From: Hymenobacter oligotrophus
Lineage (GTDB): Bacteria > Bacteroidota > Bacteroidia > Cytophagales > Hymenobacteraceae
Direction: 5' to 3'
Assembly (NCBI RefSeq): GCF_003574965.1
Contig: NZ_CP032317.1
Span: forward strand, 3,100,001 to 3,164,000
DNA length: 64,000 nt
The notes under the pieces are model-generated. The model made no database searches. It was not told the origin of the DNA and worked only from the letters and a program-made list of their open reading frames with translations. Position numbers and translations under genes: made by a program. Positions 1 to 64,000 of this stretch are shown one piece after another; position 1 is the first letter of the stretch; each line of letters starts with the position of its first letter.

Positions 1-492
1 CAGCGCATCGAGCACGGCGTGTTGGGCGTACTTGCTGGCGCCGTAGGCGGTGCCGTGCGCAAAAGTGCGCTTGCTCACGTCGGAGGCAATGCCCACGATG
101 TGGCCGCGGCGCTGCTCCTTAAAGTGCGGCAACGCGGCTTTGCAGAGCAGGAAGGTGCCCTTCACGTTCACATCGAACATCCGGTCCCACTCGGCTTCCT
201 CAAAGTTTTCGAGCAGGTTAAACGAGCCGACGCCGGCGTTGCACACCACCATATCGAGACGGCCGTAGCGGTTCAGGGCCTCGGCTACCACCAGTTGCGC
301 GTCGGCCTCTTGGCTTACGTCGGCCACCACGGGCAAGCCGTTGGTTTTGTGGGCCACTTCCAGCAGGTCGTCTTCGGAGCGGGCTACCAGCACTACCTGG
401 GCGCCCTGCAGGGCCAGCAACGTGGCAATGGCCCGCCCAATGCCGCGGCTGGCCCCGGTTACAATGGCTACTTGGTTGGTTAGGTCGGTCAT
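1..492 (-). CDS. SDR family NAD(P)-dependent oxidoreductase, 3' end cut by window edge
   Basis: The 164 codons present begin MTDLTNQVAIVTGASRGIG, the Rossmann start of classical short-chain dehydrogenases with the TGxxxGxG nucleotide-binding motif at about residues 12-19. An NAG motif (CNAGVG) follows near residue 85, and the active-site YxxxK (AYGASK) lies near the truncated end. The ATG at 492 is the natural start because the glycine motif follows it at the usual distance. Classical SDRs are about 245 residues, so roughly 80 residues lie beyond the left edge. The substrate cannot be inferred: SDRs act on sugars, ketoacyl groups, steroids and others. The gene reads leftward, away from the GxxExxY element. 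Confidence 0.9.
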   Translation of the reverse strand, partial: MTDLTNQVAIVTGASRGIGRAIATLLALQGAQVVLVARSEDDLLEVAHKTNGLPVVADVSQEADAQLVVAEALNRYGRLDMVVCNAGVGSFNLLENFEEAEWDRMFDVNVKGTFLLCKAALPHFKEQRRGHIVGIASDVSKRTFAHGTAYGASKYAQHAVLDAL

Positions 493-499
493 CGTGTTA

Positions 500-975
500 T
501 TTCTCGCTGAGGTTCGCTGAGGTTTACGCCGAGGTTCGCGGAGAATCTTGCAGGCCATTTACGATACGCACGATTCCTTCTTTGACGTGCACCACGCTGA
601 AATTCATCAACAGGCCAAGCTTGCAGTCCGAAAGTTTCAGGTACGTGAGCAATTGTTTGTGGTGCACATCCAGCAAAGCATCTACCGATTTGATTTCAAC
701 GATAACCCGATTATGCACCAGCAGGTCGAGTCGAAAACCTACGTCCATCCGCTGTCCTTCGTACACCATCGGCAACGGCACTTGGGTTTTCACCTCGTAG
801 CCCAACAGGCGAAGCTCATAGGCCAAGGCCACCTCGTATACCGATTCGAGCAAGCTCGGACATAGGGCCGTATGCACCTTAAAGGCAGCCTTGCGGATGT
901 TGAAAGAAATATCGTTTTCGTGCATAAAAGCTCAGCGAACCTCTGCGCTTTACCTCCGCGAACCTCAGCGAGAAA
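500..975. repeat. Inverted repeats bracketing the GxxExxY gene
   Basis: A perfect 18-bp inverted repeat (500-517 and 958-975) brackets the gene at 524-925. Each arm continues inward for about 42 bp as four quasi-copies of a 10-mer close to CGCNGAGGTT. The right arm is the imperfect reverse complement of the left. A further pair of the same 10-mers stands alone at 34303-34320. The arrangement resembles a small mobile or hitch-hiking cassette, but there is no transposase and no target-site duplication was recognised. Confidence 0.75.
524..925 (-). CDS. GxxExxY protein (PD-(D/E)XK-like fold)
   Basis: This 133-residue protein matches the GxxExxY family: a helical start, then SLLESVYEVALAYEL with the family's ExxY, a strand with LDLLVHNRVIVEIKSVD, and a conserved C-terminal LLMNF. 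The D...ExK arrangement (D68, E77, K79 approximately) is that of PD-(D/E)XK nuclease-like folds. The usual glycine of GxxExxY is replaced (CPSLLESVY). No biochemical role is established for the family as far as I know. The gene lies between two inverted repeats and has no operon partner, which suggests it travels as an autonomous unit. Confidence 0.85.
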   Translation of the reverse strand: MHENDISFNIRKAAFKVHTALCPSLLESVYEVALAYELRLLGYEVKTQVPLPMVYEGQRMDVGFRLDLLVHNRVIVEIKSVDALLDVHHKQLLTYLKLSDCKLGLLMNFSVVHVKEGIVRIVNGLQDSPRTSA

Positions 976-991
976 AATCCTAGGTCAACGA

Positions 992-2893
992 TTACTTCTT
1001 CAGCTCCAGCACCCAGGCCGTGTAGGCGGGCACTTTCAGCGAGGCCAGGTTATCGAGCGAGGTGCCGGTAATTACCTCCTGCGCCGACTTGTAGCCTTGC
1101 ATGCGCTCGGCAAAGCGGGCGGTTTCCACGGTTTTGGCCTCTTTGCTGGCGTTCATCACCACCATCACGGTTTCGCCCTGCTCGTTGTAGCGGAAGTAAG
1201 TGTACACGCCGTTGTCGGGGATGAAGTGCATGTACTTGCCGGTGTGCAGCACGGGGTGCGTGCGGCGGTAGTTGGCCAAGCGGCTTACGTACTCGAAAGC
1301 GGCGTTTTGCTGCTCGTTGCGGCCGGCTTTGGTAAAGGCATTGTTCTTGTCGCCGGCCCAGCCGCCGGGGAAATCCTCGCGCACTTTGCCATCGGGGTTG
1401 GAGTAGTTCTTCATCAGCACCTCGGTGCCGTAGTACAGCTGCGGCGTGCCGCGCGTGGTGAGCAGCCAGGCAATGCCCATCTTGTACTTCTGGAAGTCTT
1501 CGCCCACCACCGAGAAGAAGCGGCTCACGTCGTGGTTGTCGAGGAACACCACGTTGCGCTGTGGGTCTTCGTACATCCAGTCGGTTTGCATGGTGTAGTA
1601 CAGCTTGTTGATGCCTTCCGTCCAGCCGGCGTCGCGCGTCAGGCCTTCGTTGATGGCGTATTGCAGCTGAAAATCGAGCACGCCGGGCATGTTGCTTTTG
1701 AAGCCCTGCACCTCCGGAAAGATGTTGCGCGCGAAGTAGGCCTGCTGCCCGGTGCCTTGCACCCAGGTTTCGGCAAACATCCCTAGGTTGGGGTACTCGT
1801 CGAGGATGGCCTTGCCCCAGTCCATCAGAAACTTGCGGTCCGAGTACGTGTAGGTATCCACGCGGTAGCCGTCGAGGCCGGTGTACTCTACCCACCACAG
1901 GAAGTTCTGGATGAGGTAGCGCGACACCTGCGGGTTGCTCTGGTTCAGGTCGGCCATGTGCTTATCAAACCACCCTTCGCCAAACTGCTTGCGGTCGGCA
2001 GCTGATACGTAGGGGTCGTTGAAGGCGGCGTCGCGGAAGTTGGAGCGCGTAAACGCGGGCCACTGATGAAACCAGTCCTTGGAGGGCGCATCCTTCACGA
2101 GGTAGCCCGAGGTGCCCATGTGGTTCAGCACCACGTCGTGCACCACTTTCAGGCCCTGCTTGTGGGCGTTCTGCACAAAGCGCACGTAGTCGTCGTTGGT
2201 ACCGTAGCGGGGGTCAACGCGGTACCAGTCGGTGGCGGCGTAGCCGTGGTAGCTGGCTTTGGGCTCGTCGTTCTCCACAATAGGCGTGGGCCAAATGGCC
2301 GTTACGCCCAGCTCCTTGAGGTATCCGAAGTGGTCTTCGATGCCCTTTAGGTCGCCGCCGTGGCGCGAGAACATGGAGTCGCGAGCAATGCCCGGGGCCC
2401 GCATGCCCTTCACGATGTCGTTTTTGGGGTTGCCGTTGGCAAACCGGTCGGGCATCAGCAGGTAAATGAAATCGGCGGTGTTGATGCCCTGCACCTTCGA
2501 TTTGTCGCCCGGCGTGGTGCGGGCGCGCAGCTCGTACTGAAACTTCTGCTTTTTGGCGCCGCCCGTAAACGTGAGCGGCAGCTTGCCCGGCTTGGCCGTG
2601 GGCTCGATGCGCAGGTTTACGAGCAGGTAGTTCGGGTTTTCGAGTTTCTCCTGGCTGGTAAGCGTTACGCCGGGGTAGCTGCCATCGATTGCGGCCGTGC
2701 CGGAACCGATTCCGGGACCGTACACGAGCAATTGCACTTCGGGGTTTTTCATGCCCACCCACCAAAACGTGGGGTCGATGCGGGTAATGCCGCTTTTGGC
2801 AACGGCTGCGGGGGCCGGATCGGCCGCTTGGCTGGCCGCGGGCGCGCCGAGTAGCATCAGCAGCAGCGGCGCCCAGGAAAACTTACGGGACAT
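992..2893 (-). CDS. Secreted GH13 alpha-amylase / cyclomaltodextrinase-like
   Basis: A 633-residue glycoside hydrolase family 13 enzyme that should hydrolyse alpha-1,4-glucans (starch, maltodextrin, cyclodextrin). The ATG at 2893 is chosen because it begins a clear signal peptide (MSRKFSWAPLLLMLL...ASQA); an upstream in-frame start would bury it. An N-terminal immunoglobulin-like cyclomaltodextrinase domain (about 40-135) precedes the barrel. The four GH13 motifs are present: DVVLNH at about 253, GYRVDTY with nucleophile D346, FAETW with acid/base E375, and FLDNHD with D455. A C-terminal beta domain follows. The product is probably periplasmic or surface exposed. It is divergent from a GT35 phosphorylase homologue, suggesting joint control of glucan use. 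Confidence 0.93.
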   Translation of the reverse strand: MSRKFSWAPLLLMLLGAPAASQAADPAPAAVAKSGITRIDPTFWWVGMKNPEVQLLVYGPGIGSGTAAIDGSYPGVTLTSQEKLENPNYLLVNLRIEPTAKPGKLPLTFTGGAKKQKFQYELRARTTPGDKSKVQGINTADFIYLLMPDRFANGNPKNDIVKGMRAPGIARDSMFSRHGGDLKGIEDHFGYLKELGVTAIWPTPIVENDEPKASYHGYAATDWYRVDPRYGTNDDYVRFVQNAHKQGLKVVHDVVLNHMGTSGYLVKDAPSKDWFHQWPAFTRSNFRDAAFNDPYVSAADRKQFGEGWFDKHMADLNQSNPQVSRYLIQNFLWWVEYTGLDGYRVDTYTYSDRKFLMDWGKAILDEYPNLGMFAETWVQGTGQQAYFARNIFPEVQGFKSNMPGVLDFQLQYAINEGLTRDAGWTEGINKLYYTMQTDWMYEDPQRNVVFLDNHDVSRFFSVVGEDFQKYKMGIAWLLTTRGTPQLYYGTEVLMKNYSNPDGKVREDFPGGWAGDKNNAFTKAGRNEQQNAAFEYVSRLANYRRTHPVLHTGKYMHFIPDNGVYTYFRYNEQGETVMVVMNASKEAKTVETARFAERMQGYKSAQEVITGTSLDNLASLKVPAYTAWVLELKK

Positions 2894-3236
2894 AGGACTG
2901 GGAGAAATGAGCGGTAAAAGCAACCTAGCAGAAACGCGCCAAAGTAGCATGCTTCGCGGCGCGCACTCAAACCTAGCTCGGCAATTGCAGATAATTTGCG
3001 TTATTTATTTACTTTTTCTTGCGCTTACCCCCTAATTCGCATGCACTTTGGCCTGCTTGGGCCGCGGTGGCTCGCCCGCACCTAGGGCTGCTGCCCGCCC
3101 CAGGCCACCGCGCCTGGGTGGTTGCGGCCCACAGGGTTGCGCATCACTTTTTTGCTTACCCCGCCGCCCGCAAGGCGCGGCACTGTTCATTCACATCAGC
3201 CTTACCAGCTTCATTTCTAACGGATTTTCACACGAA
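2894..3236. other. Divergent intergenic region, amylase / phosphorylase
   Basis: This 343-bp gap between two divergent starts must hold both promoters. It contains an AT-rich patch at 2985-3030, the best promoter candidate, though no exact TAnnTTTG box is present. A GC-rich 9-bp inverted repeat (3063-3071 with 3104-3112) could form a hairpin in the phosphorylase leader. One CCTAGG lies at 3080. No convincing small gene was seen; the in-frame upstream extension of the phosphorylase looks non-coding. Confidence 0.5.
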
Positions 3237-4904
3237 ATGGCCTTTTCATTTACCTCGTACCAGCCCGCGCCCGAGTTCAGCAAATCGGCAGCTTACTTCT
3301 CCATGGAGTTTGCCATCGACCAAGCCCTGAAAACGTACAGCGGCGGCCTCGGCTTTTTGGCGGGCTCGCACATGCGCTCGGCCTACGAGCTGAAGCAAAA
3401 CCTCATTGGCATTGGCATTCTGTGGTCGTTTGGCTACTACGACCAAGGCCGCCAGGAAGACGAAACCTTGCGCGTGGACTACGTGCAGAAGCACTATAGC
3501 TTTTTGCAGGATACGGGCGTGATGTTCGAAATCACCATCCACAACGCCCCCGTGAAGGTGCGCGCCTACTACCTCGCGCCCGAGGTGTTTGGCACGTGCC
3601 CCATGTTCTTCCTGACCACCGACGTGCCCGAGAACGACTACCTCTCGCGCACCATCTCGCACCACCTCTACGACGCCGACCTGGCTGCGCGCGTGGCCCA
3701 GAGCATTCTGCTGGGCGTGGGCGGCGGCAAGCTGCTCGATATCATCGGCCGCACGCCCGAGGTGTACCACCTCAACGAGGGCCACGGCCTGCCCCTGGGT
3801 TTCTACCTCTACAACAAGCACGGCCATAAGTTGGAGGAGGTGCAGAAGCGCTTGGTGTTTACCACGCACACCCCCGAGCTGGCCGGCAACGAGGAGCACG
3901 GCTTTAAGCTGCTCGACGACATGGGCTTCTTCGCCGGGGTATCGGGCGAGGAGGTGCGCCGCCTGGGCTTTGTGGAGCACGAACGCGTAAACTACACCCT
4001 CACGGCCTTGCGCATGTCGCACGTGGCCAACGGCGTTTCGGCCGTGCACGGGCGCGTATCCAACCAAATGTGGGCCGGCAACGCGGGCATTTGCCCCATC
4101 ATCCACATCACCAACTCGCAAAACGGCACCTACTGGCGCGACAAGCAGCTGCACGAAGCCTTGGCCGCCAACGATACCGACGCGCTAAAGGCTCGCAAGC
4201 GCCAGCTAAAACAAGAGCTATTTAAGGAAGTGGCCAACCAAACCGGCAACGTCTTCGACCCCGACGCCCTGACGGTGGTGTGGGCCCGCCGCTTTGCCGG
4301 CTACAAGCGCGCCAACCTTATTCTGCACGACTTTGCCCGCTTTGAGGCGCTGGTGCGCAGCTCGGAGCGCCCGGTGCAGGTAATTTGGGCTGGCAAGCCC
4401 TACCCCAAGGACTACGGCGCTATTGGCTTGTTCAACGACCTGATTAAGCGCACCCGCCACCTCAAGCAGTGCGCCGTGCTCACGGGCTACGAGCTGCAGC
4501 TTTCGGCTTTGCTGAAGAAAGGCTGCGATATTTGGCTGAACACGCCGCGCTTCCCGCGCGAGGCCTCGGGCACCTCGGGTATGACGGCCGCCATGAACGG
4601 CGCCCTCAACCTGAGCATCCCCGATGGCTGGATTCCGGAGTTCGTGCGCCACGGCGAAAACGGCTTCCTGATTCCGCTGGCCGACCTGCACGAGCACGAC
4701 GACACGAAAGACGCCATTGAAGCCAGCGGTACGCTCGACGTGCTGGAGCAGGAAATTCTGCCGCTGTACTACGGCAACCCCGCCGCCTACTGGCAAGCCG
4801 TGCAAACCGCCATGCGCGAGGTGGAGCCCCAGTTCGAATCGGGCCGCATGGCCACCGAGTACTACGAGCTGATGTACAATGCCAACGTGCCGGTAGTTAA
4901 GTAA
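3237..4904 (+). CDS. Alpha-glucan phosphorylase homologue (GT35, short type) lacking the PLP lysine
   Basis: 555 residues of the short bacterial/archaeal GT35 type. The ATG at 3237 gives the family start (AAYFSMEFAID, then SGGLGFLAGSH at 35-45). LNEGH at 179-183 and RRFAGYKR at 351-358, with the Arg and Lys that contact phosphate in glycogen phosphorylase, are intact. In characterised GT35 enzymes PLP forms a Schiff base with the Lys of GT(S/G)(G/N)MK. Here the segment reads SGTSGMTAAMNGAL, with Thr450 in that position. I have the impression that related Bacteroidota proteins share this, but could not check. The enzyme may bind PLP differently or not be a phosphorylase. Its divergent neighbour is an amylase, so a role in glycogen or maltodextrin metabolism remains likely. 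Confidence 0.85.
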   Translation: MAFSFTSYQPAPEFSKSAAYFSMEFAIDQALKTYSGGLGFLAGSHMRSAYELKQNLIGIGILWSFGYYDQGRQEDETLRVDYVQKHYSFLQDTGVMFEITIHNAPVKVRAYYLAPEVFGTCPMFFLTTDVPENDYLSRTISHHLYDADLAARVAQSILLGVGGGKLLDIIGRTPEVYHLNEGHGLPLGFYLYNKHGHKLEEVQKRLVFTTHTPELAGNEEHGFKLLDDMGFFAGVSGEEVRRLGFVEHERVNYTLTALRMSHVANGVSAVHGRVSNQMWAGNAGICPIIHITNSQNGTYWRDKQLHEALAANDTDALKARKRQLKQELFKEVANQTGNVFDPDALTVVWARRFAGYKRANLILHDFARFEALVRSSERPVQVIWAGKPYPKDYGAIGLFNDLIKRTRHLKQCAVLTGYELQLSALLKKGCDIWLNTPRFPREASGTSGMTAAMNGALNLSIPDGWIPEFVRHGENGFLIPLADLHEHDDTKDAIEASGTLDVLEQEILPLYYGNPAAYWQAVQTAMREVEPQFESGRMATEYYELMYNANVPVVK

Positions 4905-4908
4905 AGGG

Positions 4909-5056
4909 TGTTAGCTGTCAGTCATTAGCTGTTAGTTGTCAGGAGTGGTTGCAAGCCGACAACCGAAAACCCGCAACCACCTACTAGGCCGCTAACAGCT
5001 GATAACTGCCAACTAATAACTGATTACTAACAGCTAAAAGCTGACTACTAACAGCT
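4909..5056. repeat. Word-built inverted repeat (TTAGCTGTTAG type)
   Basis: Between the convergent phosphorylase and esterase genes, short words such as TTAGCTGT and TTAGTTGTCAG are iterated on the left (4909-4942). Their complements AACAGCT and CAACTAATAACTG are iterated on the right (4991-5056). An inner stem GTGGTTGC/GCAACCAC sits between. The whole can fold as an imperfect long hairpin. It resembles other gaps here that use different words. Confidence 0.65.
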
Positions 5057-5058
5057 GC

Positions 5059-5121
5059 CCCCGGCGAACGAAGAACGGGCCGGTACCTCCTAGGTGCCGG
5101 CCCGTTCTTCGTTCGCCGGGG
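5059..5121. terminator. Bidirectional hairpin terminator, 25-bp perfect arms
   Basis: Arms 5059-5083 and 5097-5121 are exact reverse complements around a 13-nt loop that contains CCTAGG. It lies between convergent genes and its right arm runs about 30 bp into the 3' end of the esterase gene, so the last codons are also stem sequence. No T-run is evident. Confidence 0.75.
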
Positions 5122-6025: not shown

Positions 6026-6064
6026 TCTGCACCCGCATCATTTCCTTACATACACATACTATTC

Positions 6065-6638: not shown

Positions 6639-6856
6639 GTTTTAGGGATTGGGGCATTAGGTGACAGGTAACACGACGAGACCTGTGCCGCCAAAGCCCA
6701 TAATACAGCCGGGCCGCCCCAAATGGGGCGGCCCGGCTGTTTTGGTGCCTAGGTGCTGGCAGGTGCCTTTTGCGCAAGGAGCGCCAGCGCACCTAGGAGC
6801 GCAGCGCCAACATGTTGCGTGTTACCTGTCACCTCATCACTCAATTCCCAAAACCT
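6637..6856. repeat. 39-bp inverted repeat spanning the gap between two convergent stop codons
   Basis: Arms 6637-6675 and 6818-6856 are about 85% identical as reverse complements; the inner 17 bp (6659-6675 with 6818-6834) are exact. The arms begin at the stop codon of the DUF6952 gene and end at the stop codon of the TetR gene. A perfect terminator hairpin lies inside. Confidence 0.75.
6705..6740. terminator. Bidirectional terminator, 17-bp perfect arms
   Basis: Arms 6705-6721 and 6724-6740 pair exactly around a 2-nt loop and are followed by TTTT on the plus strand. It lies between the convergent DUF6952 and TetR genes, so it may stop both. Confidence 0.8.
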
Positions 6857-20045: not shown

Positions 20046-22952
20046 TTAGCCGAGCAGCTCCTCGATATCTTCCTTGGTGAGGCTTTTGATAATGGCCTCA
20101 TCGGTAGTTATCAGGTCCGACACCAGCTGAATCTTGCGGTTTTGCAGAGCTAGAATCTTTTCCTCCACCGTGCCCTTGGTGATGAACTTGTAGGTGAACA
20201 CCGTACGCTCCTGCCCAATGCGGTGGGCGCGGTCGACGGCCTGAGCTTCTACAGCGGGGTTCCACCACGGGTCGAGAATGAACACGTAGTCGGCGGCGGT
20301 GAGGTTAAGGCCCACGCCCCCGGCTTTCAGGCTGATGAGGAACACGCGCAGGTCTTCCGTGGTCTGAAAGCGCGCTACCTCTTTGGCTCGGTCGCGGGTG
20401 TTGCCGTCTAGGTAGGCGTACTCAATCTGTTTTTCGTCGAGCACGTGGCGCACCAGCTCTAGGTGTTTCACGAACTGACTAAACACCAACACCTTGTGGC
20501 CTTCGGCTACTACGCTCCGAATCATGCGCACCACTTCGCGCAGCTTGCCCGACTCGGCCTCGTAAGTTTCGTCGGCCATGCGGGGGTGGTTGGCAATCTG
20601 GCGGAGCTTGGTAAGGCCCTGCAGCAGCATAAACTGGGTGCTGGCCGTGCCGTGCTCCTCAATGCTCTGCAGAATCTTGTTGCGGTAGTAGCTCTTGGTT
20701 TCTTCGTAGCACTGCTGCTGCTCCTCCGTCATGCGGCAGTAGCTCAGGTGCTCAATCTTCTCGGGCAGCTCGGTGGCTACCTGCGCCTTGTGCCGACGCA
20801 GGATAAAAGGCTTGATGAGCGTGTGCAGGCGCCGCGTCTTTAGCTCGTCCTTCTCTTTTTCGATCGGTTTGAGAAACTCCTTGCGGAAGAACGCCTGCGA
20901 ACCTAGGAGACCCGGGTTGATGAACGACATCTGCGACCACAAATCCATGGTGCTGTTCTCCACGGGCGTGCCCGTGAGGATGAGCCGGTGGCGCGAGTGC
21001 AGGTGCCGCACCGCCTGCGAAGTGGTGGAGCTGGGGTTCTTGATGGCCTGCGACTCGTCGAGGATTACGTAGTCGAACTTGTAGGTTTTGAGCAGCTCCG
21101 CATCGAGGCGCACAATGCCGTACGACGTCAAGATAAGGTCGTAGTCGGCAAACTGCTCCACGTTTTTGTCGCGGTAGGTGCCGGTGTAGGTCAGCACGCG
21201 CAGGCCGGGCGTAAACTTTTGGGCTTCGTTCAGCCAGTTGTATACCAGCGACGTGGGCATTACCAGCAACGAAGCCGCACCGCCTGCCGCACCGCTCTCT
21301 TTGCGCTGCAACAGCATGGCCAGCGTCTGAACCGTCTTGCCAAGCCCCATATCGTCGGCCAGGCAGCCGCCGAAATGGTAGTCCTGCACAAAATGCAGCC
21401 AGTTGTAACCGGCTTGCTGGTAAGGGCGCAACGCACCGTTGAAACCCACGGGCAGCGGCCGATCTTCCACCGCCTCAAAACCGCGCAGGCGTTCCAGCTT
21501 GCGCGACATGGTGACGGTGGCAAGATTGCCGTTCTCTAGGTCCGAAACCAGCGCTACGTGGTGCTTTTTGAGCGTGAGCGAGTGGTGGTGCTCCTCCGAG
21601 AAGGCAAACAGCTCGAGGTACTGCGTAAACCACTCCTCCGGAATAATGGCAATCTGGCCGTTGGGCAGCTTAAACTCGTGGCGCTTCTGCAAAATGTAAG
21701 GCCGCAGCTTCACGAACGGGATTTCGAACTCGCCGAAGCGCACCGTGCCGTGAATGTCGAACCAATCGTTGTTTTCGGTGATGCCCACGTTCACCGTAAC
21801 CGTGCCGATAAAGTAATCCTTGCCCGAAGTGCTGCCTTGCTGCACCGTGAAGCCTAGGCGGGCCAGCTCCTCGGCGTGCGAGTGCAGCCACTTAAAGGCG
21901 GTGGCTTTTTCGAGCACGGCGCGGCCGTTGCGCACCTCCAAGGCGCGGTCTTGCAGCTCCCGGATAAAGTTCTGCTCGTTTTCCAGGTCGCGGATGAGGC
22001 GGTGGAACACGTACGACTCGGGCGTTTTTTCCAGCTTCACACTCACGCGCTTGTCGTGGTTGCGCACGATATGGTCGCCGTACTGGAAAGCAATATCGAA
22101 GTGGATCTGGTCGGCGTTGGCGTCGAGGTCGTAGGTAGTGGTGCCAGCCGTGGGCACATCCGAAAAGATGAGGTGCGGCTTGGCCTGGTAGCGCTCCGAG
22201 CGGATATCGAACCCGCGGGCGTGCACATCGAACGACTCTACCAAAGGCGCCACAAAGCGCTGGTAGTAGCTGTCCTCTACCTGCCTAGGTATTACAATGA
22301 ACTTCTTGTTCAGGAAGGGCTGCAGCTTCTTGCCATCTACCTCATTGCGGAAGTTGTGCAATACCCCATCCAGCAGCATCCAGGCGGGCTGGCAGCACAC
22401 CATCACGGCGTTGCGCTGCTGAAAGTCGAGCCGCTGCCCGCGGTACTGAATGGTGGGGAAGTAATGGGTGTTTTCGGGGTTGCGGCGGAAGTGAAACAGC
22501 ACCGAAGCGGCCTCAGGCGCTACCGAAATTTCCTTCCAGGTCGGCTCGCCGTCTTTGCCCATGATGAACACCTGCTTGCCGTGCAGCCCATCGAGCAGCT
22601 GGCCCATGCGCTGCTGAATATAATTGCAGATGCGCTCCTGCAGGGCTTTGTCGCCTTTTTCGGGGTCGTAAATCTTCAGGAAGAAGTCGGCCGGCGTGGT
22701 TTTCTTTGGCCAAAACTCTTTGATAACCGCGTCTTGCTGAATTTGGTCCGTCAGGGCTATCAACTCGAAGTCAATGGCGTCGAGGCCATCGGCAAATTCG
22801 GCCGCGTTCATGGCCGAAATGTTCTGGTGCTGCAGGGTCAGTTGCCCCTTGGCATTACGCTGAACCACGTAGGATTCAAACAGATATCCAAGGTACTCGT
22901 GCTCGAAGAGCGAGTACACTATTTGGAAAGGCTGTGAAGTAGAAACCTTCAT
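20046..22952 (-). CDS. SNF2/HepA-family DEAD/DEAH box ATPase
   Basis: 968 residues. The N-terminal half (about 1-500) has no recognised domain; the C-terminal half is a SNF2 ATPase with motif I DDMGLGKT near residue 535, motif II DESQ (in LDESQAIKN, near 632), motif III LTGTPVEN, motif V GVGLNLTAADYVF and motif VI QAVDRAHRIGQ. Bacterial SNF2 proteins related to RapA/HepA remodel RNA polymerase or DNA-protein complexes. This is a stand-alone version without restriction or phage-defence neighbours. It is preceded by a 200-bp AT-rich leader region. Confidence 0.9.
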   Translation of the reverse strand: MKVSTSQPFQIVYSLFEHEYLGYLFESYVVQRNAKGQLTLQHQNISAMNAAEFADGLDAIDFELIALTDQIQQDAVIKEFWPKKTTPADFFLKIYDPEKGDKALQERICNYIQQRMGQLLDGLHGKQVFIMGKDGEPTWKEISVAPEAASVLFHFRRNPENTHYFPTIQYRGQRLDFQQRNAVMVCCQPAWMLLDGVLHNFRNEVDGKKLQPFLNKKFIVIPRQVEDSYYQRFVAPLVESFDVHARGFDIRSERYQAKPHLIFSDVPTAGTTTYDLDANADQIHFDIAFQYGDHIVRNHDKRVSVKLEKTPESYVFHRLIRDLENEQNFIRELQDRALEVRNGRAVLEKATAFKWLHSHAEELARLGFTVQQGSTSGKDYFIGTVTVNVGITENNDWFDIHGTVRFGEFEIPFVKLRPYILQKRHEFKLPNGQIAIIPEEWFTQYLELFAFSEEHHHSLTLKKHHVALVSDLENGNLATVTMSRKLERLRGFEAVEDRPLPVGFNGALRPYQQAGYNWLHFVQDYHFGGCLADDMGLGKTVQTLAMLLQRKESGAAGGAASLLVMPTSLVYNWLNEAQKFTPGLRVLTYTGTYRDKNVEQFADYDLILTSYGIVRLDAELLKTYKFDYVILDESQAIKNPSSTTSQAVRHLHSRHRLILTGTPVENSTMDLWSQMSFINPGLLGSQAFFRKEFLKPIEKEKDELKTRRLHTLIKPFILRRHKAQVATELPEKIEHLSYCRMTEEQQQCYEETKSYYRNKILQSIEEHGTASTQFMLLQGLTKLRQIANHPRMADETYEAESGKLREVVRMIRSVVAEGHKVLVFSQFVKHLELVRHVLDEKQIEYAYLDGNTRDRAKEVARFQTTEDLRVFLISLKAGGVGLNLTAADYVFILDPWWNPAVEAQAVDRAHRIGQERTVFTYKFITKGTVEEKILALQNRKIQLVSDLITTDEAIIKSLTKEDIEELLG

Positions 22953-53935: not shown

Positions 53936-55207
53936 ATGAATTTTTCCAAGTACCTGCGTTTAGCTGTCGTTGGCGCGTGCGCCCTGTCGGCTTGCAAAAG
54001 CGGTCCGCCTTCGGCTCAGAAGCCCGGTAAGTACTCGTCCACCACGGGCATCGAGTACAACACCGAGGAGGGCATGAAGGTAGCTGACTATCAAGGCATC
54101 CCCGAGGGCCCCGGCCTGGTGTTCATCGAAGGCGGCCGTACGGTTTTGGGTTCGGGTGAGGAAGATGTGGCCATGACCCACGACAACCTCGAGCGCACCG
54201 TAACCGTGGCCTCGTTCTACATGGACGAAGCCGAAGTAGCCAACATCCACTGGCTCGAATACCTGCACTACGTTCGCAAAGACTCGTCGGAGGAGGTTTA
54301 CCAGAAGGCGCTGCCCGACACCACCGTGTGGGCCCGCGACCTGTCGTTTAACGACCCCTACGTTGACTACTACCTGCGTTACCCCGGCTTCCGCTACTTC
54401 CCGGTAGTAGGCGTAAGCTGGCTGCAAGCCAACGACTACTGCACCTGGCGTACGGCCAAGGTGAACGAAAACCTCGCCGGTATTTCCGAAGAGGGCACCG
54501 AAGAGGCTCCCAAGAAGAAAAAAGGCGGCCTGTTCGGTAAGAAAAACAAAGGCGGCGACGCCCCTGCCGACGGCGCCGAAGGCACCGACGAAGAAGGCAA
54601 GGTAAAAATCTCGATCGAGAACGGTAACACGCTCCCGAACTACCGCCTGCCCACCGAAGCCGAATGGGAATACGCTGCTCAGGCTATGATCGGCACCCAG
54701 GAAACCGGCAACGAAAACCAGGAGAACAAGCGCGTGTACCCTTGGGATGGCCGCCAGATGCGTAACCCCTACGGCAAGAAGATGGGCCAGTTCCTGGCGA
54801 ACTTCAAGCGTGGCCGCGGCGACTACGCCGGTATTGCCGGTTCGCTCAACGACGGCGCCATGATTACGGAGTACATCTACAACTACCCGCCCAACGACTA
54901 CGGCCTCTACAACATGGCTGGCAACGTAAACGAGTGGGTGCAGGACGTGTACCGCCCGCTGTCGTTCGAAGACATGGAAGACCTGAACCCCTTCCGCCGC
55001 AACGGCGTGCTCGACGAATCGGAGAAGTACGACAAGAAAGGCTACCAGTCGCTCATCGACGACCACGTGCGCGTGTACAAAGGCGGCTCGTGGAAGGACG
55101 TAGCTTATTGGCTCTCGCCCGGTACGCGTCGCTTCATGGCTGAAGACTCGGCTACGGCCTCGATAGGCTTCCGCTGCGCCATGATCAACCCCGGCTCGAA
55201 CAAGTAA
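53936..55207 (+). CDS. gldJ: Gliding motility / T9SS lipoprotein GldJ
   Basis: 423 residues. Lipoprotein signal (lipid Cys20 in ALSACKSG). The SUMF1/formylglycine-generating-like fold has PGLVFIEGGRTVLGSGEED, FYMDEAEVANIHWLEYL, PNYRLPTEAEWEYAA, DYGLYNMAGNVNEWVQDVYR and RVYKGGSWKD...GFRCAM. GIAGSLNDGAMITE and the last blocks match GldJ better than GldK. A Lys/Gly-rich insert lies at about 196-225. GldJ stabilises other Gld proteins in gliding and type IX secretion. It follows porP/sprF by 70 bp; gldK-N are not in the window. AAGGAG lies about 20 nt upstream of the start. Confidence 0.93.
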   Translation: MNFSKYLRLAVVGACALSACKSGPPSAQKPGKYSSTTGIEYNTEEGMKVADYQGIPEGPGLVFIEGGRTVLGSGEEDVAMTHDNLERTVTVASFYMDEAEVANIHWLEYLHYVRKDSSEEVYQKALPDTTVWARDLSFNDPYVDYYLRYPGFRYFPVVGVSWLQANDYCTWRTAKVNENLAGISEEGTEEAPKKKKGGLFGKKNKGGDAPADGAEGTDEEGKVKISIENGNTLPNYRLPTEAEWEYAAQAMIGTQETGNENQENKRVYPWDGRQMRNPYGKKMGQFLANFKRGRGDYAGIAGSLNDGAMITEYIYNYPPNDYGLYNMAGNVNEWVQDVYRPLSFEDMEDLNPFRRNGVLDESEKYDKKGYQSLIDDHVRVYKGGSWKDVAYWLSPGTRRFMAEDSATASIGFRCAMINPGSNK

Positions 55208-57708: not shown

Positions 57709-57717
57709 GGGCGCGTC

Positions 57718-57803
57718 GCACGCACCTAGGCATTCGGTGTTGCCCCTAGGTCGTAGGGCGGCGCCACCGACCCAGGGGCAACACCGAATGCCTAGGTGCG
57801 TGC
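57718..57803. terminator. Large hairpin after xth, 30-bp perfect arms carrying CCTAGG
   Basis: Arms 57718-57747 and 57774-57803 pair exactly, and the 26-nt loop can form a further GGTCG/CGACC stem. Three CCTAGG copies lie in it (57725, 57743 area, 57791). It may terminate xth or be a repeat element; no T-run. The rest of the gap to 57938 is AT-poor with no visible gene. Confidence 0.75.
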
Positions 57804-57937
57804 AACGCACCCCACATGCCACTTTTTCGGGCGGACGGTGGTTAAGAAGCTCAACGGCGCGGTGCTGCTCAGCCTACCGAGCGGTTTCGTCGTATCTTCC
57901 TGTACTCTGCCGTTCACCTGTGTCGAAAGGTTCTGCC

Positions 57938-60900
57938 ATGCCGGCAACGCAATACGCTTCTTCTGCGGCCGCTCCTGCCAGTTGGCAGGCCGTACGCCAA
58001 CACCTAGAGGGCTTCAAACGCAAATTTTACCTCAGCCTGCTAGTGCGCGGGGTGCTGGTAGCCGGTGGGCTGCTGCTTACGCTGTTTGTGGTCTTCAACC
58101 TGCTCGAGTACTTCTTGTACCTGCCCACCTGGGTGCGGGGCGGGCTGCTGTTCGGCTTTTTGGGGCTGACGGTTTGGGCCTTTGTGCACTGGATTTGGCA
58201 GCCGCTGGCCGCCCTCACCAACCTGCGCCGCCTGCTCTCCGACGAGCAAGCCGCCCAGCGGGTAGGTCAGCTGTTTCCGGAGGTGCAAGACCGCCTGCTG
58301 AACGCGCTGCAGCTGCAGGGCCAAGCCCGCGACAACGCCCTGATTGCCGCCAGCCTCGAGCAACGCGCCGGCCAGCTGCAAGGCATCGACTTTGCCGGCC
58401 GAATCCGCATCAAAGAGGAAACCCGCCCGCTCTGGAAGTACGCCGCCGTGCCGGCCCTGGTGGCCGCGGGCTTGCTGTTGGTGTGGCCCAGCCTGTTTGT
58501 GCAGGGTACTGAGCGCATTTTCCACTACAACCGAGCGTACTCGCGGCCCATGCCGTTCCGCTTTGTGGTTGGCAATAAGCAGCTGCAAACCTTCAAAAAC
58601 GAAGATTTCAAGCTGGAAGTAACAGTGGAGGGCGACGTGATGCCCAACGAAGTAAGCGTGCTGTACGACGGCCGCGAGCGGCGCCTCACCAAAGTAGGTC
58701 CGGGCCGGTTTGCGTTTACGTTTCAGCAGCCGCAGCGCAGCACCGATTTTCAGCTGGCCGCTGCCGGCTTCACTTCCGACGACTACCAGCTGCGGGTGCT
58801 GGAGCGCCCCACCTTGCGCGAGTTTGCCGTGCGGGCCGAGTACCCCGGCTACCTGCGCCGCGCCGCCGAAACCCTGCCCAACGACGGCAACCTCACCGTG
58901 CCCGAAGGCACGCGCCTGACCTGGCAGTTCAGTACGGCCGCCACCGAGCAGGTAAAGCTGGAATTTCTGGAGCCCAACGAAACCCTAACGGCCCAAGCGG
59001 CCAACGACGACGGCCGGTTCACCATCACGCGCCAGGCCCTGCGCAGCCAACCCTACCGCGTGCAGCTGCGCAACGCCATCAGCCCGCAACGCGACCCGAT
59101 TGAGTACCAGCTCACGGTGGTGCCCGATCAGGCGCCCAGCATCACTGTAGAGGCTTTTGCCGACACAGCCACGCGCCGATATTTGGCCCTGGCTGGCACC
59201 CTGCGCGACGATTACGGCTTGTCGCGGTTGGCGCTGCACTACCGCGTAGGCACGGCGCAACGCCCCGGCCAGTGGCGCACGGCACCCATTGCCTTAGCCA
59301 ACAACGGCCCTGCCCAAACCTACACGCACCAGTGGGACCTAGGGCCGCTGCGCCTGAAAGCCGGCGACCAGCTGGAGTACGCCGTGGAGGTGTGGGACAA
59401 CGACGGCCTGCACGGCCCCAAAAGCGCCCGTACCCGCCCCATTACCTACCGCTTGCCCTCCCGGGCCGAAATGCGCGAGCAGCTGAACGCCAGCGCTTCG
59501 GCCATGCAAAACAAAATGACCAGCGCGCAAGAGCAGAGCAAAAAGCTGCAGCGCGAGTTGGCCAAAGCCGAGCAAAAGCTGAAAACCAAGCGCGAGCTGA
59601 GCTACTCCGACCGCAAGGAGATGCAACAGATGCTGCAGCAAAAGCAGCAGATGGATCAGCAGCTCTCGGAGATGAAGCAGCTATTTGAGCAGCTGCAACA
59701 AAAGCAGGAGCAAATGGACCCGCGCAGCCAGCAGCTTGCCGAAAAAGCGCAGGAGCTGCAAAAGCTGATGGACTCGATGATGGACGAGCAGACCAAGAAG
59801 CTGTACGAGGAGCTGCAAAAGCTGCTGCAACAGCAAAAGGCGCCCGAAAGCGAGATTCAGAAGCTGCTCGAGAAAATTGAGAACAAAGAAGAAACGCTGC
59901 AGAAAGAGTTGGAGCGCGCCATGGACTTGTTCAAGCAATTGCAGCTTGAGCAGAAGATGGAAAGCACCACCGAGCAGCTGGAAAAGCTAGCCGAGCAGGA
60001 GCAGAAGCTGGCCGAGCAAACCCAAAAAGCCGCCGACAAGCCCGCCGACCAGCGCAAGCAGGAAAACGAGCAGCTAAAGCAACAGCAGCAGGAAGCGCAA
60101 AAGGCGTTCGAGGAGGTAAAGAAAGAGCTGCAGGAATTGCAGAAGATGGATCAGCAGCTCGACAACCAGAACAACCTCGACCCCATGCAGCAGCAGCAGC
60201 AGGAAACCGAGCAGCAAATGCAGGACAGCCAGGAGCAGCTGCAGAAAAACCAAAACCAGAAAGCCAGCCAGAGTCAGCAACAGGCCGCTCAAAACATGAA
60301 GGAAATGGCGCAGAAGATGCGCCAGCAGATGGAGGAAGAAGAGTCGGATGAGCAGCAAGAGAACATCGACCACTTGCGCGACATCCTCGAAAACCTACTG
60401 AAGCTTTCGTTCGACCAGGAAAACCTGATGAAGCAGTTTCGGCAGGTCGATCAGTCGGACCCGCGGTTTGTGCAGCTCAGCCAAAACCAGCGCAAGCTTC
60501 GCGACGATGCCGTGGTGGTGCAAGACTCCTTGTATGCCCTGGCCAAGCGCGTGTTCCAGATCCAGAGTTTCGTGACGCGCGAGGTGACGGAGATGAACGG
60601 CCAGATGGACCAGGCCATGGAGCAGCTGCGCCAGCGCAACCTAGGCCGCGCCACCAACTCGCAGCAGCTGGCCATGACCTCGATGAACAACTTGGCCCTG
60701 ATGCTGAACGATGCCCTGAAGCAAATGCAGGAGCAGCAACGCCAAGCGCAGCAAAACCAATCGGGCAGCGGCAGCCGCGGCAAAAAAAAGAAAAGCGGCC
60801 AGCAGAACCCTGGCGCCGGCCAAATGGGCAAGTTGCAGCAGCAGCTCAACCAGCAAATTCAGCAGTTGCAGCAAAGCGGCAAAAGCGGGCGGCAGCTTTC

Positions 60901-61345
60901 GGAAGAGCTAGCCAAGATGGCTGCCCAGCAGCAGATGCTGCGGGAGGCACTGCAGCAACTCGAGAAAATGCAGCAGCAAGCCAAAGACGGCAAAAACGGC
61001 CAGAAAAAAGGCTCCGACGGCCAGGGGGGCCTAGGGGATTTGAAGAAGATGATGGAACAAACCGAGGAAGACCTCGTAAATAAACGGTTGACGGAGCAAA
61101 CCGTTATGCGCCAGCGTCAGATCCTGAGCCGCCTCTTGGAAGCCGAGAAATCGGCCCGGGAGCGGGACCTCGACAACAAGCGCGAAGCCGAAACAGCACG
61201 CACGGTGCCGCCCGGTTTTCCGCCGGCTTTCGAGAAATATCGTCGGGAACGTAACCGTCAGACGGAGTTGCTACGTACGGTACCGCCGGCCCTCACGCCG
61301 TATTATCAGCGGGAGGTGAGCGAGTATTTTCAGAAAATGAAATAG
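57938..61345 (+). CDS. DUF4175 family membrane protein with long Gln-rich coiled coil
   Basis: 1135 residues from the ATG at 57938 (the longer frame runs through the hairpin and is rejected). Two N-terminal TM segments (about 30-85) and a third (about 165-185) precede a beta-rich region (190-510). From about 510 to 1080 it is a Gln/Glu/Lys-rich coiled coil. DUF4175 is widespread in Bacteroidota with unknown role; the shape suggests an envelope scaffold. Downstream are an RsbW-like ATPase and ybeY, a conserved order. Confidence 0.85.
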   Translation: MPATQYASSAAAPASWQAVRQHLEGFKRKFYLSLLVRGVLVAGGLLLTLFVVFNLLEYFLYLPTWVRGGLLFGFLGLTVWAFVHWIWQPLAALTNLRRLLSDEQAAQRVGQLFPEVQDRLLNALQLQGQARDNALIAASLEQRAGQLQGIDFAGRIRIKEETRPLWKYAAVPALVAAGLLLVWPSLFVQGTERIFHYNRAYSRPMPFRFVVGNKQLQTFKNEDFKLEVTVEGDVMPNEVSVLYDGRERRLTKVGPGRFAFTFQQPQRSTDFQLAAAGFTSDDYQLRVLERPTLREFAVRAEYPGYLRRAAETLPNDGNLTVPEGTRLTWQFSTAATEQVKLEFLEPNETLTAQAANDDGRFTITRQALRSQPYRVQLRNAISPQRDPIEYQLTVVPDQAPSITVEAFADTATRRYLALAGTLRDDYGLSRLALHYRVGTAQRPGQWRTAPIALANNGPAQTYTHQWDLGPLRLKAGDQLEYAVEVWDNDGLHGPKSARTRPITYRLPSRAEMREQLNASASAMQNKMTSAQEQSKKLQRELAKAEQKLKTKRELSYSDRKEMQQMLQQKQQMDQQLSEMKQLFEQLQQKQEQMDPRSQQLAEKAQELQKLMDSMMDEQTKKLYEELQKLLQQQKAPESEIQKLLEKIENKEETLQKELERAMDLFKQLQLEQKMESTTEQLEKLAEQEQKLAEQTQKAADKPADQRKQENEQLKQQQQEAQKAFEEVKKELQELQKMDQQLDNQNNLDPMQQQQQETEQQMQDSQEQLQKNQNQKASQSQQQAAQNMKEMAQKMRQQMEEEESDEQQENIDHLRDILENLLKLSFDQENLMKQFRQVDQSDPRFVQLSQNQRKLRDDAVVVQDSLYALAKRVFQIQSFVTREVTEMNGQMDQAMEQLRQRNLGRATNSQQLAMTSMNNLALMLNDALKQMQEQQRQAQQNQSGSGSRGKKKKSGQQNPGAGQMGKLQQQLNQQIQQLQQSGKSGRQLSEELAKMAAQQQMLREALQQLEKMQQQAKDGKNGQKKGSDGQGGLGDLKKMMEQTEEDLVNKRLTEQTVMRQRQILSRLLEAEKSARERDLDNKREAETARTVPPGFPPAFEKYRRERNRQTELLRTVPPALTPYYQREVSEYFQKMK

Positions 61346-61386
61346 CGCTGCCTATTTTTACGCCCGTTGCCCCCTTTCTCCACACC

Positions 61387-61818
61387 ATGAAGCAGGTTAA
61401 AATCCAGATTCCTTCCCTCGTCGAGAACATCCGCGTGGTGGAAAGTTTCATCGACAACTCGAAGGAAACGTTTCACATTGAGGACGACATTTACGGCAAC
61501 ATCATGGTGGCCGTAACGGAGGCCGTGAACAACGCCATTCGCCACGGCAACAAGTTCGATAAGGACAAAAACGTGTTGCTGTGCCTTTCCGTGGACGAAG
61601 GCCAGGTTAAGTTCGAAATCGAAGACCAAGGACCGGGCTTCGATTACAACAACCTGCTCGACCCCACCGCCCCCGAAAACCTCGAGAATCCCGGCGGGCG
61701 CGGTATCTTCCTGATCCGCCACCTGGCCGATGAGGTAGAGTTTACCAAGGACGGCCGCAAAGTAGAACTTACGTTCTTCTTGCCCCCGACGTCGGGCAAC
61801 GGCCACGCCACTGCCTAA
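61387..61818 (+). CDS. RsbW-like GHKL ATPase / anti-sigma factor-type kinase
   Basis: 143 residues. Single HATPase_c domain: N-box VTEAVNNAIRHGNK, G1 box IEDQGPGFDY, and G2 box GGRGIFLIRHLAD. Size and start match RsbW/SpoIIAB-type protein kinases that bind sigma factors or phosphorylate STAS antagonists. No STAS or RsbU gene is adjacent, so the target is unknown. The gene lies between DUF4175 and ybeY. Confidence 0.88.
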   Translation: MKQVKIQIPSLVENIRVVESFIDNSKETFHIEDDIYGNIMVAVTEAVNNAIRHGNKFDKDKNVLLCLSVDEGQVKFEIEDQGPGFDYNNLLDPTAPENLENPGGRGIFLIRHLADEVEFTKDGRKVELTFFLPPTSGNGHATA

Positions 61819-61849
61819 AACCGTGTCATCATCCTTTTTCGGCTCCGCC

Positions 61850-62335
61850 ATGCAAGACGATGCCCAGCTCCCGCCGGCCCACGACGAGGCCTACGACCCG
61901 TTGCACGACGCGCCGGGTATCGAGTTTGTGGTGGAGGATGTAGACTTTGAGCTGACCGACGCCACCGAACTCACCGAGTGGGTGGAGCGCGTAGCAGCCG
62001 TGCACGAGCACAAAATCGTGCAGCTTACTTACATTTTCTGCTCCGACGAGTACTTGCACCGCGTGAACGTGGAGTACCTCGACCACGACACGTACACCGA
62101 CGTTATCACCTTCGACAACGCCGACGACGCCGACATCATCGAGGGCGACGTGTTCATTTCGGTGGAGCGGGTGCGCGAAAACGCCCAAAGCCACAACGTG
62201 AGCTTCCGCGACGAGCTGCACCGCGTAATGATACACGGCGTGCTGCACCTGCTGGGCTACAAAGACAAAGACCTGCTGAGCCAGACGGCCATGCGCAAGA
62301 AAGAAGACGACTGCTTGTCGCTGCGCACCTTCTAA
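61850..62335 (+). CDS. ybeY: Endoribonuclease YbeY
   Basis: 161 residues from the ATG at 61850. The UPF0054 signature HRVMIHGVLHLLGYKDKD holds the Zn-binding His pair and an Asp in the place of the third His, common in relatives. FCSDEYLHRVNVEYLDHDTYTDVITF precedes it. YbeY processes the 3' end of 16S rRNA and joins ribosome quality control. An N-terminal extension of about 30 residues is acidic and unusual. Upstream is the RsbW-like gene. Confidence 0.93.
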   Translation: MQDDAQLPPAHDEAYDPLHDAPGIEFVVEDVDFELTDATELTEWVERVAAVHEHKIVQLTYIFCSDEYLHRVNVEYLDHDTYTDVITFDNADDADIIEGDVFISVERVRENAQSHNVSFRDELHRVMIHGVLHLLGYKDKDLLSQTAMRKKEDDCLSLRTF

Positions 62336-62355
62336 CTCATACCAGCTGCTACTTC

Positions 62356-62386
62356 AAAACGCCCACTTCACCGTGGGCGTTTTTTG
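62356..62386 (+). terminator. Rho-independent terminator after ybeY
   Basis: Stem AAAACGCCCAC / GTGGGCGTTTT (62356-62366, 62373-62383), followed by a T-run. Confidence 0.92.
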
Positions 62387-62508
62387 TTTTTATAGGGTCA
62401 TTGACTGAGAAACAACCTCAACCACCTAGGGTTAGGAACTATCCGGCCTTGCGCGTACTCTTGTAGCTATTCGGCACCTAGGCAGCCCTGGGCCCGGCGC
62501 TTTTTGCT

Positions 62509-63237
62509 ATGTCCGTTTCCCCGTCTTCGTTGCCCGTTATTCAGGGCGAGGTGCTCGATTTTTACTTAAGCCAGGGCTATTACCGGATGCACCAGGACTT
62601 GTTTACCTGCCGGTTTTTGCCCCTCGACGAAAGCCTGTACACGGTGCATTGGCTGCGCCTCGACCTAGGCCGCGTATCGTTTGGCAGCGAGCAGCGCCGC
62701 CTGTTGCGCCAGAACAAGCGGTTTACGGCCGTAGTGCGTCCGTTTCGGCTTACTGCCGAGTACGAGGAGTTGTACGCCCGCTACCGCAGCTCCATCACCT
62801 TCGATGCGCCCGAAACGGTAGAGGCCTTCTTGCTGGCCGGCGCGCAGCACAACGTATTTACCACCCACGTCATCGAGCTGCGCGACGGGGAACAGCTGAT
62901 AGCCGCCGGCATTTTCGACAGCGGCGAGCAGAGCCTGGCGGGCATCATGAACTTCTACGACCCAGCCTACCGCAAGCACAGCCTGGGCAAGCACCTGATG
63001 CTGCTCAAAATCATCTATGCCTTGCAGGAGGACAAGGCCTACTACTACCCGGGCTACGTGGTACACAACTACCCCAAGTTCGATTACAAGCTGTACCCGT
63101 GCCCAGCCGCTACCGAGGTGTACGATTGCGCCACCGGCTACTGGCTGCCTTTCTCCTGGGATGTTGTAGCGGCGCAATCGGCTGAATTGCTGAAGAATTG
63201 GCCGCCTAAGTTCAGCGAAGAAGGGGAGGCGGAGTAA
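62509..63237 (+). CDS. Arginine-tRNA-protein transferase-like (ATE/Bpt C-terminal fold)
   Basis: 242 residues. The ATE-type GNAT-like core is recognised in FTTHVIELRDGEQLIAAGIF, LAGIMNFYDPAYRKHSLGKHL and AYYYPGYVVHNY. The N-terminal CxxC zinc motif of full Ate1 enzymes is reduced, with Cys only at DLFTCRF. Relatives attach Leu/Arg to protein N-termini for N-end-rule degradation. It could also act on other acceptors. It stands alone between ybeY and mnmG. Confidence 0.82.
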   Translation: MSVSPSSLPVIQGEVLDFYLSQGYYRMHQDLFTCRFLPLDESLYTVHWLRLDLGRVSFGSEQRRLLRQNKRFTAVVRPFRLTAEYEELYARYRSSITFDAPETVEAFLLAGAQHNVFTTHVIELRDGEQLIAAGIFDSGEQSLAGIMNFYDPAYRKHSLGKHLMLLKIIYALQEDKAYYYPGYVVHNYPKFDYKLYPCPAATEVYDCATGYWLPFSWDVVAAQSAELLKNWPPKFSEEGEAE

Positions 63238-63333
63238 GGTTTTTCAGCACCCTAGGTCGGTAAGCCTGCGCGCGCTACAGCAGCCTTATTGGGCTCATAA
63301 CCAGCTTATCATCTAGGAAAGCGGCGGAGTGCG

Positions 63334-63341
63334 TATCTTTG
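63334..63341 (+). promoter_or_regulatory. Promoter -7 box TATCTTTG for mnmG
   Basis: Exact TAnnTTTG about 137 nt upstream of mnmG. The long leader contains an AAAACCG...CGGTTTT hairpin (63384-63416) that might attenuate transcription. Confidence 0.5.
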
Positions 63342-63477
63342 CGCACGTTCTGAGCGGGTTAGACCACAAGTCACTTGATATACGAAAACCGTTTCTGCCG
63401 AGCGTAGAAGCGGTTTTGTGTTTTGGCACAAAACGCGGGCTAACGCTGTTCATACCCTCCGAAACAACCCTCCAGCT

Positions 63478-64000
63478 ATGCTGACTCAGGAATACGATGT
63501 GATTGTGGTAGGCGCCGGCCACGCCGGTTGCGAAGCAGCGGCGGCCGCGGCCAACCTCGGCTCGAAGGTGCTGCTCATCACGATGAACATGAACACCATC
63601 GCGCAGATGTCGTGCAACCCGGCCATGGGCGGGGTGGCCAAAGGCCAGATTGTGCGCGAGGTGGACGCCCTGGGTGGCCAGAGCGGCATTATCACCGACA
63701 AAACCATGATTCAGTTTCGGATGCTGAACCGCTCGAAGGGCCCCGCCATGTGGAGCCCCCGCGCGCAAAGCGACCGGATGCGTTTTGCCGAAGAGTGGCG
63801 CCTGACGCTGGAAGGTATTTCGAACGTTGATTTCTGGCAGGAAGCCGTAACCGGCCTGTTGGTTGAAGGCGACGTGTGCGTGGGCGTGCGCACGCAACTC
63901 GGCATCGAGTTCCGTTCGAAAACGGTGGTGCTCACCAACGGCACCTTCCTGAACGGCCTCATTCACATCGGCGAGAAGCAATTTGGCGGGGGCCGCGCCG
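63478..64000 (+). CDS. mnmG: tRNA uridine-5-carboxymethylaminomethyl modification enzyme MnmG, 3' end cut
   Basis: The first 174 residues are present. FAD motif DVIVVGAGHAGCEAAAAAA starts at about 7; the conserved MSCNPAMGGVAKGQIVREVDALGG and MLNRSKGPAMWSPRAQ follow. MnmG (GidA) with MnmE adds cmnm5 to the wobble uridine of certain tRNAs. Full length is about 620 residues, so some 450 lie beyond the window. The start is preceded by a hairpin leader. Confidence 0.94.
   Translation, partial: MLTQEYDVIVVGAGHAGCEAAAAAANLGSKVLLITMNMNTIAQMSCNPAMGGVAKGQIVREVDALGGQSGIITDKTMIQFRMLNRSKGPAMWSPRAQSDRMRFAEEWRLTLEGISNVDFWQEAVTGLLVEGDVCVGVRTQLGIEFRSKTVVLTNGTFLNGLIHIGEKQFGGGRA

Follow-up and report, generated by a model that had tools for sequence, protein, structure and literature searches.

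An abundant asymmetric word built on CCTAGG in a Hymenobacter genome, and the differing words of its relatives

The hexamer CCTAGG, highly iterated in the genome of Hymenobacter oligotrophus, is in this clade the core of a longer, asymmetric unit, ACCTAGG[G/C]; the asymmetry of its flanks was overlooked in the first-pass annotation. Comparison with related genomes supports well that selection or drive acts on the DNA word itself. As to how the word is read, we favour, tentatively, a sequence-specific double-stranded-DNA-binding protein acting chromosome-wide as the most likely of the explanations considered. The window is the whole 64-kb stretch of DNA analysed (C1:3,100,001-3,164,000 of genome G000). 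G-numbers denote the family genomes compared, and G004 and G007 are the other two CCTAGG-rich genomes of the genus, which form a same-dialect clade with G000.

Abundance of CCTAGG and its true unit

By direct count the window contains exactly 95 copies of CCTAGG, in agreement with the approximately 95 first reported. Base composition predicts 20.9, close to the earlier estimate of about 20, and Markov models of orders 1, 2 and 3 predict 12.8, 12.0 and 21.0. At each of these three orders CCTAGG has the highest z-score among all 6-mers in the window, and 100 dinucleotide-preserving shuffles gave a mean of 12.79 copies and a maximum of 22. The fourth-order (maximal-order) model is the sole one under which the hexamer looks ordinary (80.6 expected, z 1.6), and it is unable to test the excess because CCTAG and CTAGG occur almost solely within CCTAGG. 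The excess is larger than first described: the whole genome of 4,188,814 bases holds 5,678 copies, approximately one per 740 bp, compared with 67 of GGATCC, which has the same letters backwards. The ratio of observed to expected copies is 6.5 in G000 and G007 and 0.12 in samples of five sister genomes.

Single-mismatch relatives had been described as few. This holds for the neighbours that keep CTAG (ACTAGG 6, GCTAGG 14 and TCTAGG 10 in the window, both strands) and also for CTTAGG (5), but not for others, with CCCAGG, CCTCGG and CGTAGG reaching 59, 71 and 40 on the same count. In a 464-kb sample of the genome, 622 of the 1,053 CTAG tetramers belong to CCTAGG.

The flanks define the unit. Exactly one A/T flank accompanies 82 of the 95 cores in the window, both flanks accompany 5 and none accompanies 8. 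Among 621 sites in 464 kb of G000, 337 read ACCTAGGG, 184 ACCTAGGC, 47 ACCTAGGA and 11 ACCTAGGT in either orientation; 42 have neither an A on the left nor a T on the right, and 11 have both, against about 140 expected under independence. Over 544 kb from G000 and G007, ACCTAGGG exceeds its first-order expectation 37-fold, and it is found once in 320 kb of the five sister genomes without the word, 0.16 of expectation. The side that carries the A was never switched, either in the 99 cores common to G000 and G004 or in the 87 common to G000 and G007.

Placement of the sites

Simple gene calls on 464 kb of G000 place 403 sites in 392,287 coding bases (1.03 per kb), 191 in 71,713 intergenic bases (2.66 per kb; coding versus intergenic, Fisher p 4e-24) and 28 at gene edges, which bears out the higher intergenic density noted earlier (about 3 versus 1.2 per kb). 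Density peaks at 6.6 per kb within 25 bp past gene 3' ends and at 5.2 per kb between convergent genes. Within genes of the same sample, 349 of 1,074 CTA codons lie inside CCTAGG. A map of strand bias, which the first-pass annotation had proposed, reveals none in the window's clade: 169 sites have the orientation of the gene strand and 197 the opposite one (464 kb of G000), and relative to the G-rich strand, local GC skew standing in for the replichore, the counts are 233 versus 219 in G000 and 86 versus 99 in G007.

Spacing in the 464-kb sample is near random, save for the codon period and inverted pairs at 33 bp. Periods of 10.5, 11 and 12 were tried, and only the codon period of 3 appears; the gaps deviate slightly from an exponential distribution (KS p 0.03). 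Inverted neighbour pairs at exactly 33 bp occur six times, one of them inside a called gene, where uniform placement predicts 0.16. At 23 to 28 bases past CCTAGGT there is a second, weak half-site (N 1,026, from three related genomes and hence not independent), which 141 intergenic sites of G000 show by themselves as well. Its conservation (0.874) is not clearly higher than that of its surroundings (0.841 and 0.873), and it is not seen in the dialect of G182 (N 237).

The sampled small contigs nearly lack the word, with 2 sites in 51 kb against 68 expected (the first 20 kb of C2 and C3 and all of C4). These contigs are probably plasmids, and they may simply be recent arrivals. On the main contig, one 20-kb stretch (L080, G000:C1:2800001-2820000) has 7 copies against about 27 expected, with 25 and 23 in the neighbouring stretches, and may be a recently gained island.

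Site clusters in the window are listed in Table 1, together with gldJ. The window also encodes a PorP-family protein. Its gldJ has its best matches in named Hymenobacter genomes, and in G005, of the same genus, gldJ has the coordinates found in Hymenobacter sp. CRA2.

Table 1. Positions in the window of the CCTAGG sites, of selected clusters and of the anchor gene.
Feature	Positions	Strand	Remarks
CCTAGG sites, 95	1..64000		start-to-start distances 20 to 2718 bp, median 520
Inverted pair GCCTAGGT / ACCTAGGA, starts 44 bp apart	6748..6797		not in one called gene
gldJ_short (gliding motility lipoprotein)	53936..55207	+	Bacteroidota marker; anchor for the orthologous region in relatives
Inverted 8-mers ACCTAGGC and CCCTAGGT, starts 20 bp apart	57725..57750		second just inside open frame 57737-61345
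Third site of the 57725 cluster, GCCTAGGT, 46 bp further	57791..57796		within open frame 57737-61345
Direct pair ACCTAGGG / ACCTAGGC, starts 52 bp apart	62425..62482		not in one called gene

Retention of the word

Between G000 and G004 (89.7% identical over 104 kb aligned), CCTAGG is kept at 99 of 122 sites, compared with a mean of 58% for 6-mers, and ranks 34 of 1,711 6-mers. The corresponding figures for G007 are 87 of 132 versus 59%, a difference that alone is not significant (p 0.11).

How firmly the word is maintained can be read directly from synonymous codons. We compared, inside and outside the word, Leu codons whose CT is kept between genomes. In G004, CTA stays CTA at 71 of 75 positions within CCTAGG and at 42 of 106 elsewhere (Fisher 2e-15), while CTG stays CTG at 11 of 28 positions within C-CTG-GG and at 1,111 of 1,288 elsewhere (Fisher 2e-8). 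In G007, CTA is kept at 55 of 74 positions inside the word and 25 of 104 outside. The usual codon preference is therefore inverted inside CCTAGG. A codon or codon-pair effect, raised at the outset as a possible source of the excess, is ruled out by this opposite behaviour of the same codons and by the denser intergenic sites.

Sister genomes without the word share almost none of the sites (0 of 71 aligned with G005, 0 of 37 with G001 and 1 of 17 with G006, the last in L124). Hymenobacter sp. BT559 (G104), which is word-bearing and 74% identical, shares 3 of 7 with G000. Relative to G005, 65% of 48 Leu-Gly pairs inside the word are kept, as are 68% of 105 outside it, and the figures relative to G001 are 57% of 21 and 74% of 31, respectively; the word makes use of Leu-Gly pairs that already exist. 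Identity between G000 and G004 falls to 0.81 beside the core and is 0.91 beyond 400 bp, and the word therefore sits in weakly constrained sequence. Retention extends to a different word in Fibrivirga and Fibrella (79% identical), where 15 of 18 GGTACGT sites are common and 19% would be expected.

Distribution and dialects among relatives

CCTAGG is patchily distributed. Across 204 family genomes, nine have 5,325 to 8,806 copies, four have 1,209 to 2,331, eight have 507 to 888 and the remaining 183 have 54 to 468. The window's own genus is split, with three of eight genomes high and five at 123 to 249 copies. The window's gldJ protein is 99% identical to those of G004 and G007.

Further words came to light in other genomes, from samples of 20 to 80 kb. 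Some retain the CTAG core: CCCTAGG[GC] in G072, ACCTAGGT in G030 and G123, A[CG]CTAGGT in G036, and CCTAGG with mixed flanks in G088 and G104. G041, G043 and G137 carry TGGCCTA[GC] inside a longer A[GC]TGGCCTA[GC], which is weaker in G129. The word is GGGTAGGG in G075 and Hymenobacter citatus, TATACTT in G155, G174 and Pontibacter vulgaris, TATACCT in Pontibacter ramchanderi and CTGGGTACGTT in Fibrivirga and Fibrella. In G182 it is CTATAGTT, with 44 sites as the palindrome AACTATAGTT; this and AACCTAGGTT of G030 have the outer AAC and GTT in common and differ in the four middle bases. In most dialect words, two short and usually unlike halves flank a TA step close to the centre.

Polarity by GC skew is likewise absent from the G043-type word (105 versus 99), TATACTT (42 versus 39), GGGTAGG (31 versus 23) and GGTACGT (21 versus 19), and the word of G182 is divided 67 to 73 between contig strands. 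There are two exceptions. CCCTAGGC in G072 occurs 28 times on the plus and 6 times on the minus strand of four stretches of contig C1 (L086-L089), a bias not accounted for by gene strand, and TATACCT is found 26 versus 11 times in one 21-kb locus of P. ramchanderi.

Among 68 gldJ loci of at least 15 kb, out of 80 fetched, seven show a clear word and Adhaeribacter rhizoryzae shows AATATT weakly. Of 20 further family genomes, sampled at 20 kb each, four show a clear word and G013 shows AATATT weakly. Three candidates were set aside as dialect words: the G-runs of L131; TGTGGATA, whose copies in L163, L182 and L185 are mostly clustered towards one end and which from its appearance we take to be DnaA boxes; and TTACTTAC in L216, a tandem repeat. 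In L216, the tetramer TACT is repeated perfectly in tandem about 44 times (G146:C1:1507713-1507887).

We found no prior description of such words in Hymenobacter, Pontibacter or the Cytophagales in the open-licence literature. A table in PMC1939737 gives GCCTAGGC as 0 observed and 151 expected in one genome.

A candidate protein reader

According to the explanation that we favour, CCTAGG would be the core of an asymmetric 8-bp chromosomal word kept for its DNA itself, and a lineage-specific double-stranded-DNA-binding protein would read ACCTAGG[G/C] across the chromosome. The absent polarity in the clade, the inverted pairs and the placement of the sites favour a protein that binds duplex DNA, conceivably as a dimer, at chromosome-wide sites. 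Such binding could organise the nucleoid or mark the chromosome as self. The word would settle where proteins tolerate it, namely between genes, past gene ends and, through synonymous change, in existing Leu-Gly pairs. The words of other relatives, most of which are divisible into two parts about a TA step, suggest one class of reader with shifting specificity.

Several observations count against such a reader. The gain and loss of thousands of sites between sister species would be odd for an ordinary architectural protein, and the weak retention of the hexamer in G007, the unclear second half-site and the strand bias in G072 and P. ramchanderi add to this. The earlier suggestion of a site for a chromosome-organising protein agrees with the inverted pairs and the absent polarity, but such a protein did not come to light: the families searched (four methyltransferase families, Vsr, the PilT family and ComEC) did not yield a reader gene.

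With somewhat less assurance, we consider it possible that Cytophagales lineages carry a self word held by strong selection or drive, with thousands of sites of 8 to 10 bp that often consist of two short halves about a TA step, dialects that change between related species, and a candidate protein reader that is neither a standard methyltransferase nor a part of type IV pilus uptake. If the reader marks self DNA, the Bacteroidota would have gained a new kind of system, for recognising mates or marking the chromosome. The role of highly iterated words is still open for HIP1. As related species have the word, another word or no clear word, it should be possible to map the reader gene from its presence or absence among them.

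Comparison with known systems

CCTAGG works like HIP1 and like an uptake sequence, yet we assign it to neither class, since one defining component of each was sought without success. Genes were sought in a panel of 36 genomes, of which 17 bear a word and 19, judged from samples of 20 to 100 kb each, do not; the panel excludes G013, G146 and the eight genomes with 507 to 888 copies of CCTAGG.

The alternative that survives best, although we think it doubtful, is an uptake-type self word, in which bearing DNA would be preferentially taken up or recombined and molecular drive would spread the word, as for DUS and USS. The word resembles the uptake sequences of Neisseriaceae and Pasteurellaceae, as far as PMC3630211 and PMC1939737 describe them, in its thousands of copies, density of about 1 per kb, non-coding excess, unbiased orientation, occasional inverted pairs and dialects, a likeness confined to the genomic profile. 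Inverted pairs of uptake sequences have been linked to terminators (Frye 2013, PMC3630211), and Riemerella columbina, also of the Bacteroidota, is described as preferring its own DNA in transformation (PMC7965970). ComEC (PF03772) is present in 36 of 36 panel genomes, with one stop in the G174 match, and is therefore uninformative, being just as present in genomes without the word. The PilT motor family (TIGR01420), the one family of the machinery searched, was found in none of the 17 word-bearing genomes at E 0.001. None of the 36 panel genomes exceeded the cut-off, and three without the word had sub-threshold matches; the control gave matches in 13 of 14 genomes, five of them above the cut-off. 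A scan for secretion-ATPase P-loops over 4.5 Mb of fetched loci gave one match, in G016, whose 20-kb sample is without the word (for a type IV filament survey see PMC6668835). Sequence near the sites is less conserved, not more, and sister species in one genus lack the word. Its bias towards positions downstream of genes is unlike most uptake sequences, which show none in the comparisons given by Bakkali (2007, PMC1939737).

We regard as unlikely a highly iterated palindrome in the sense of Elhai, in which a cognate methyltransferase would methylate the word and methyl-directed repair would create and keep it. The resemblance to HIP1 pointed out in the first-pass annotation stands for abundance (5,678 copies in 4.19 Mb), for the palindromic core, and for sporadic occurrence with other words in relatives, as described for HIP1 and for the alternate HIPs of cyanobacteria, which match resident methyltransferases (Elhai 2015, PMC4390886). 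It ends at the 8-mer, which in G000 and G007 is asymmetric (in G030, ACCTAGGT predominates), at the several non-palindromic dialects, at the TA step that most dialects have near the middle, and at the phylum, here Bacteroidota.

It also ends at the methyltransferase, since none of four Pfam families tracks the words. PF00145 (C5 methyltransferase) is absent from nine of 13 motif-rich genomes and within the clade occurs in G007, not in G000 or G004. PF01555 is missing from G000 and seven others of the 13. PF02384 (N6_Mtase) is present in 33 of 36 panel genomes, the exceptions being G004, G129 and G089. PF02086 (D12) is missing from all 17 word-bearing panel genomes, G000, G004 and G007 among them, and occurs in 5 of the 19 others. 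All four families are absent from G129, a single-contig genome in which the TGGCCTA word is weak. Vsr (PF03852), whose very-short-patch repair could also have produced such a word, is found in three of the 13 motif-rich genomes and is absent from ten, including G000. No one of these five families is present in every word-bearing genome tested or in all three of G000, G004 and G007. A scan of the fetched stretches for amino-methyltransferase motifs, with partial coverage, gave no match and carries no weight here. In these five families, the methylation or repair signal proposed earlier (repair taken here as of the Vsr type) finds no support.

Still less probable is a biased mutation or mismatch-repair process that produces the word without any use of it. 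Recent gains do frequently derive from CCCAGG or CCTGGG, one transition away. However, at sites common to G000, G004 and G007, 46 of 63 outgroup words are at least two bases off (a site may count for two outgroups) and transversions are common. These words are varied, with CCTCGG the most frequent (seven), which argues against a single mutational reaction. Retention is raised along with gain, Vsr is lacking in most motif-rich genomes, and the sampled small contigs are nearly free of the word. Erosion of CCTAGG to CCCAGG by Vsr in G007 was considered and rejected: at six of nine places with a known outgroup word, the outgroup has CCCAGG as well, so that these places look like gains in G000 and G004.

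A polar site of the Chi or KOPS kind, acting in recombination or segregation, shares with CCTAGG the character of a short, genome-specific and over-represented word, here at its density of about one per 740 bp, and would suit the strand counts in G072 and the P. ramchanderi locus, but is highly improbable given the lack of replichore polarity, by the GC-skew proxy, in G000, G007 and four other dialects, and of contig-strand bias in G182.

Other words and loci

GATC is nearly absent from some word-bearing genomes, with 2 copies against 108 expected in G072 and 0 against 116 in G088 (samples L086-L092), and counts of GGATCC vary between 0 and 645 across the family, and even inside genus g4 between 0 and 325. 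This scarcity amounts to strong avoidance, perhaps of a restriction site. CGATCG is strongly depleted in G000 (19 versus 218 expected in 464 kb) and is depleted too in its sisters G001 and G002; GCGATC and GATCGC together have zero copies in the window. The frame of a 968-residue SNF2-type helicase at 20046-22952 on the minus strand of the window overlaps a predicted tRNA-Arg (gcg) at 20981-21059 on the plus strand, and the tRNA call may be false.
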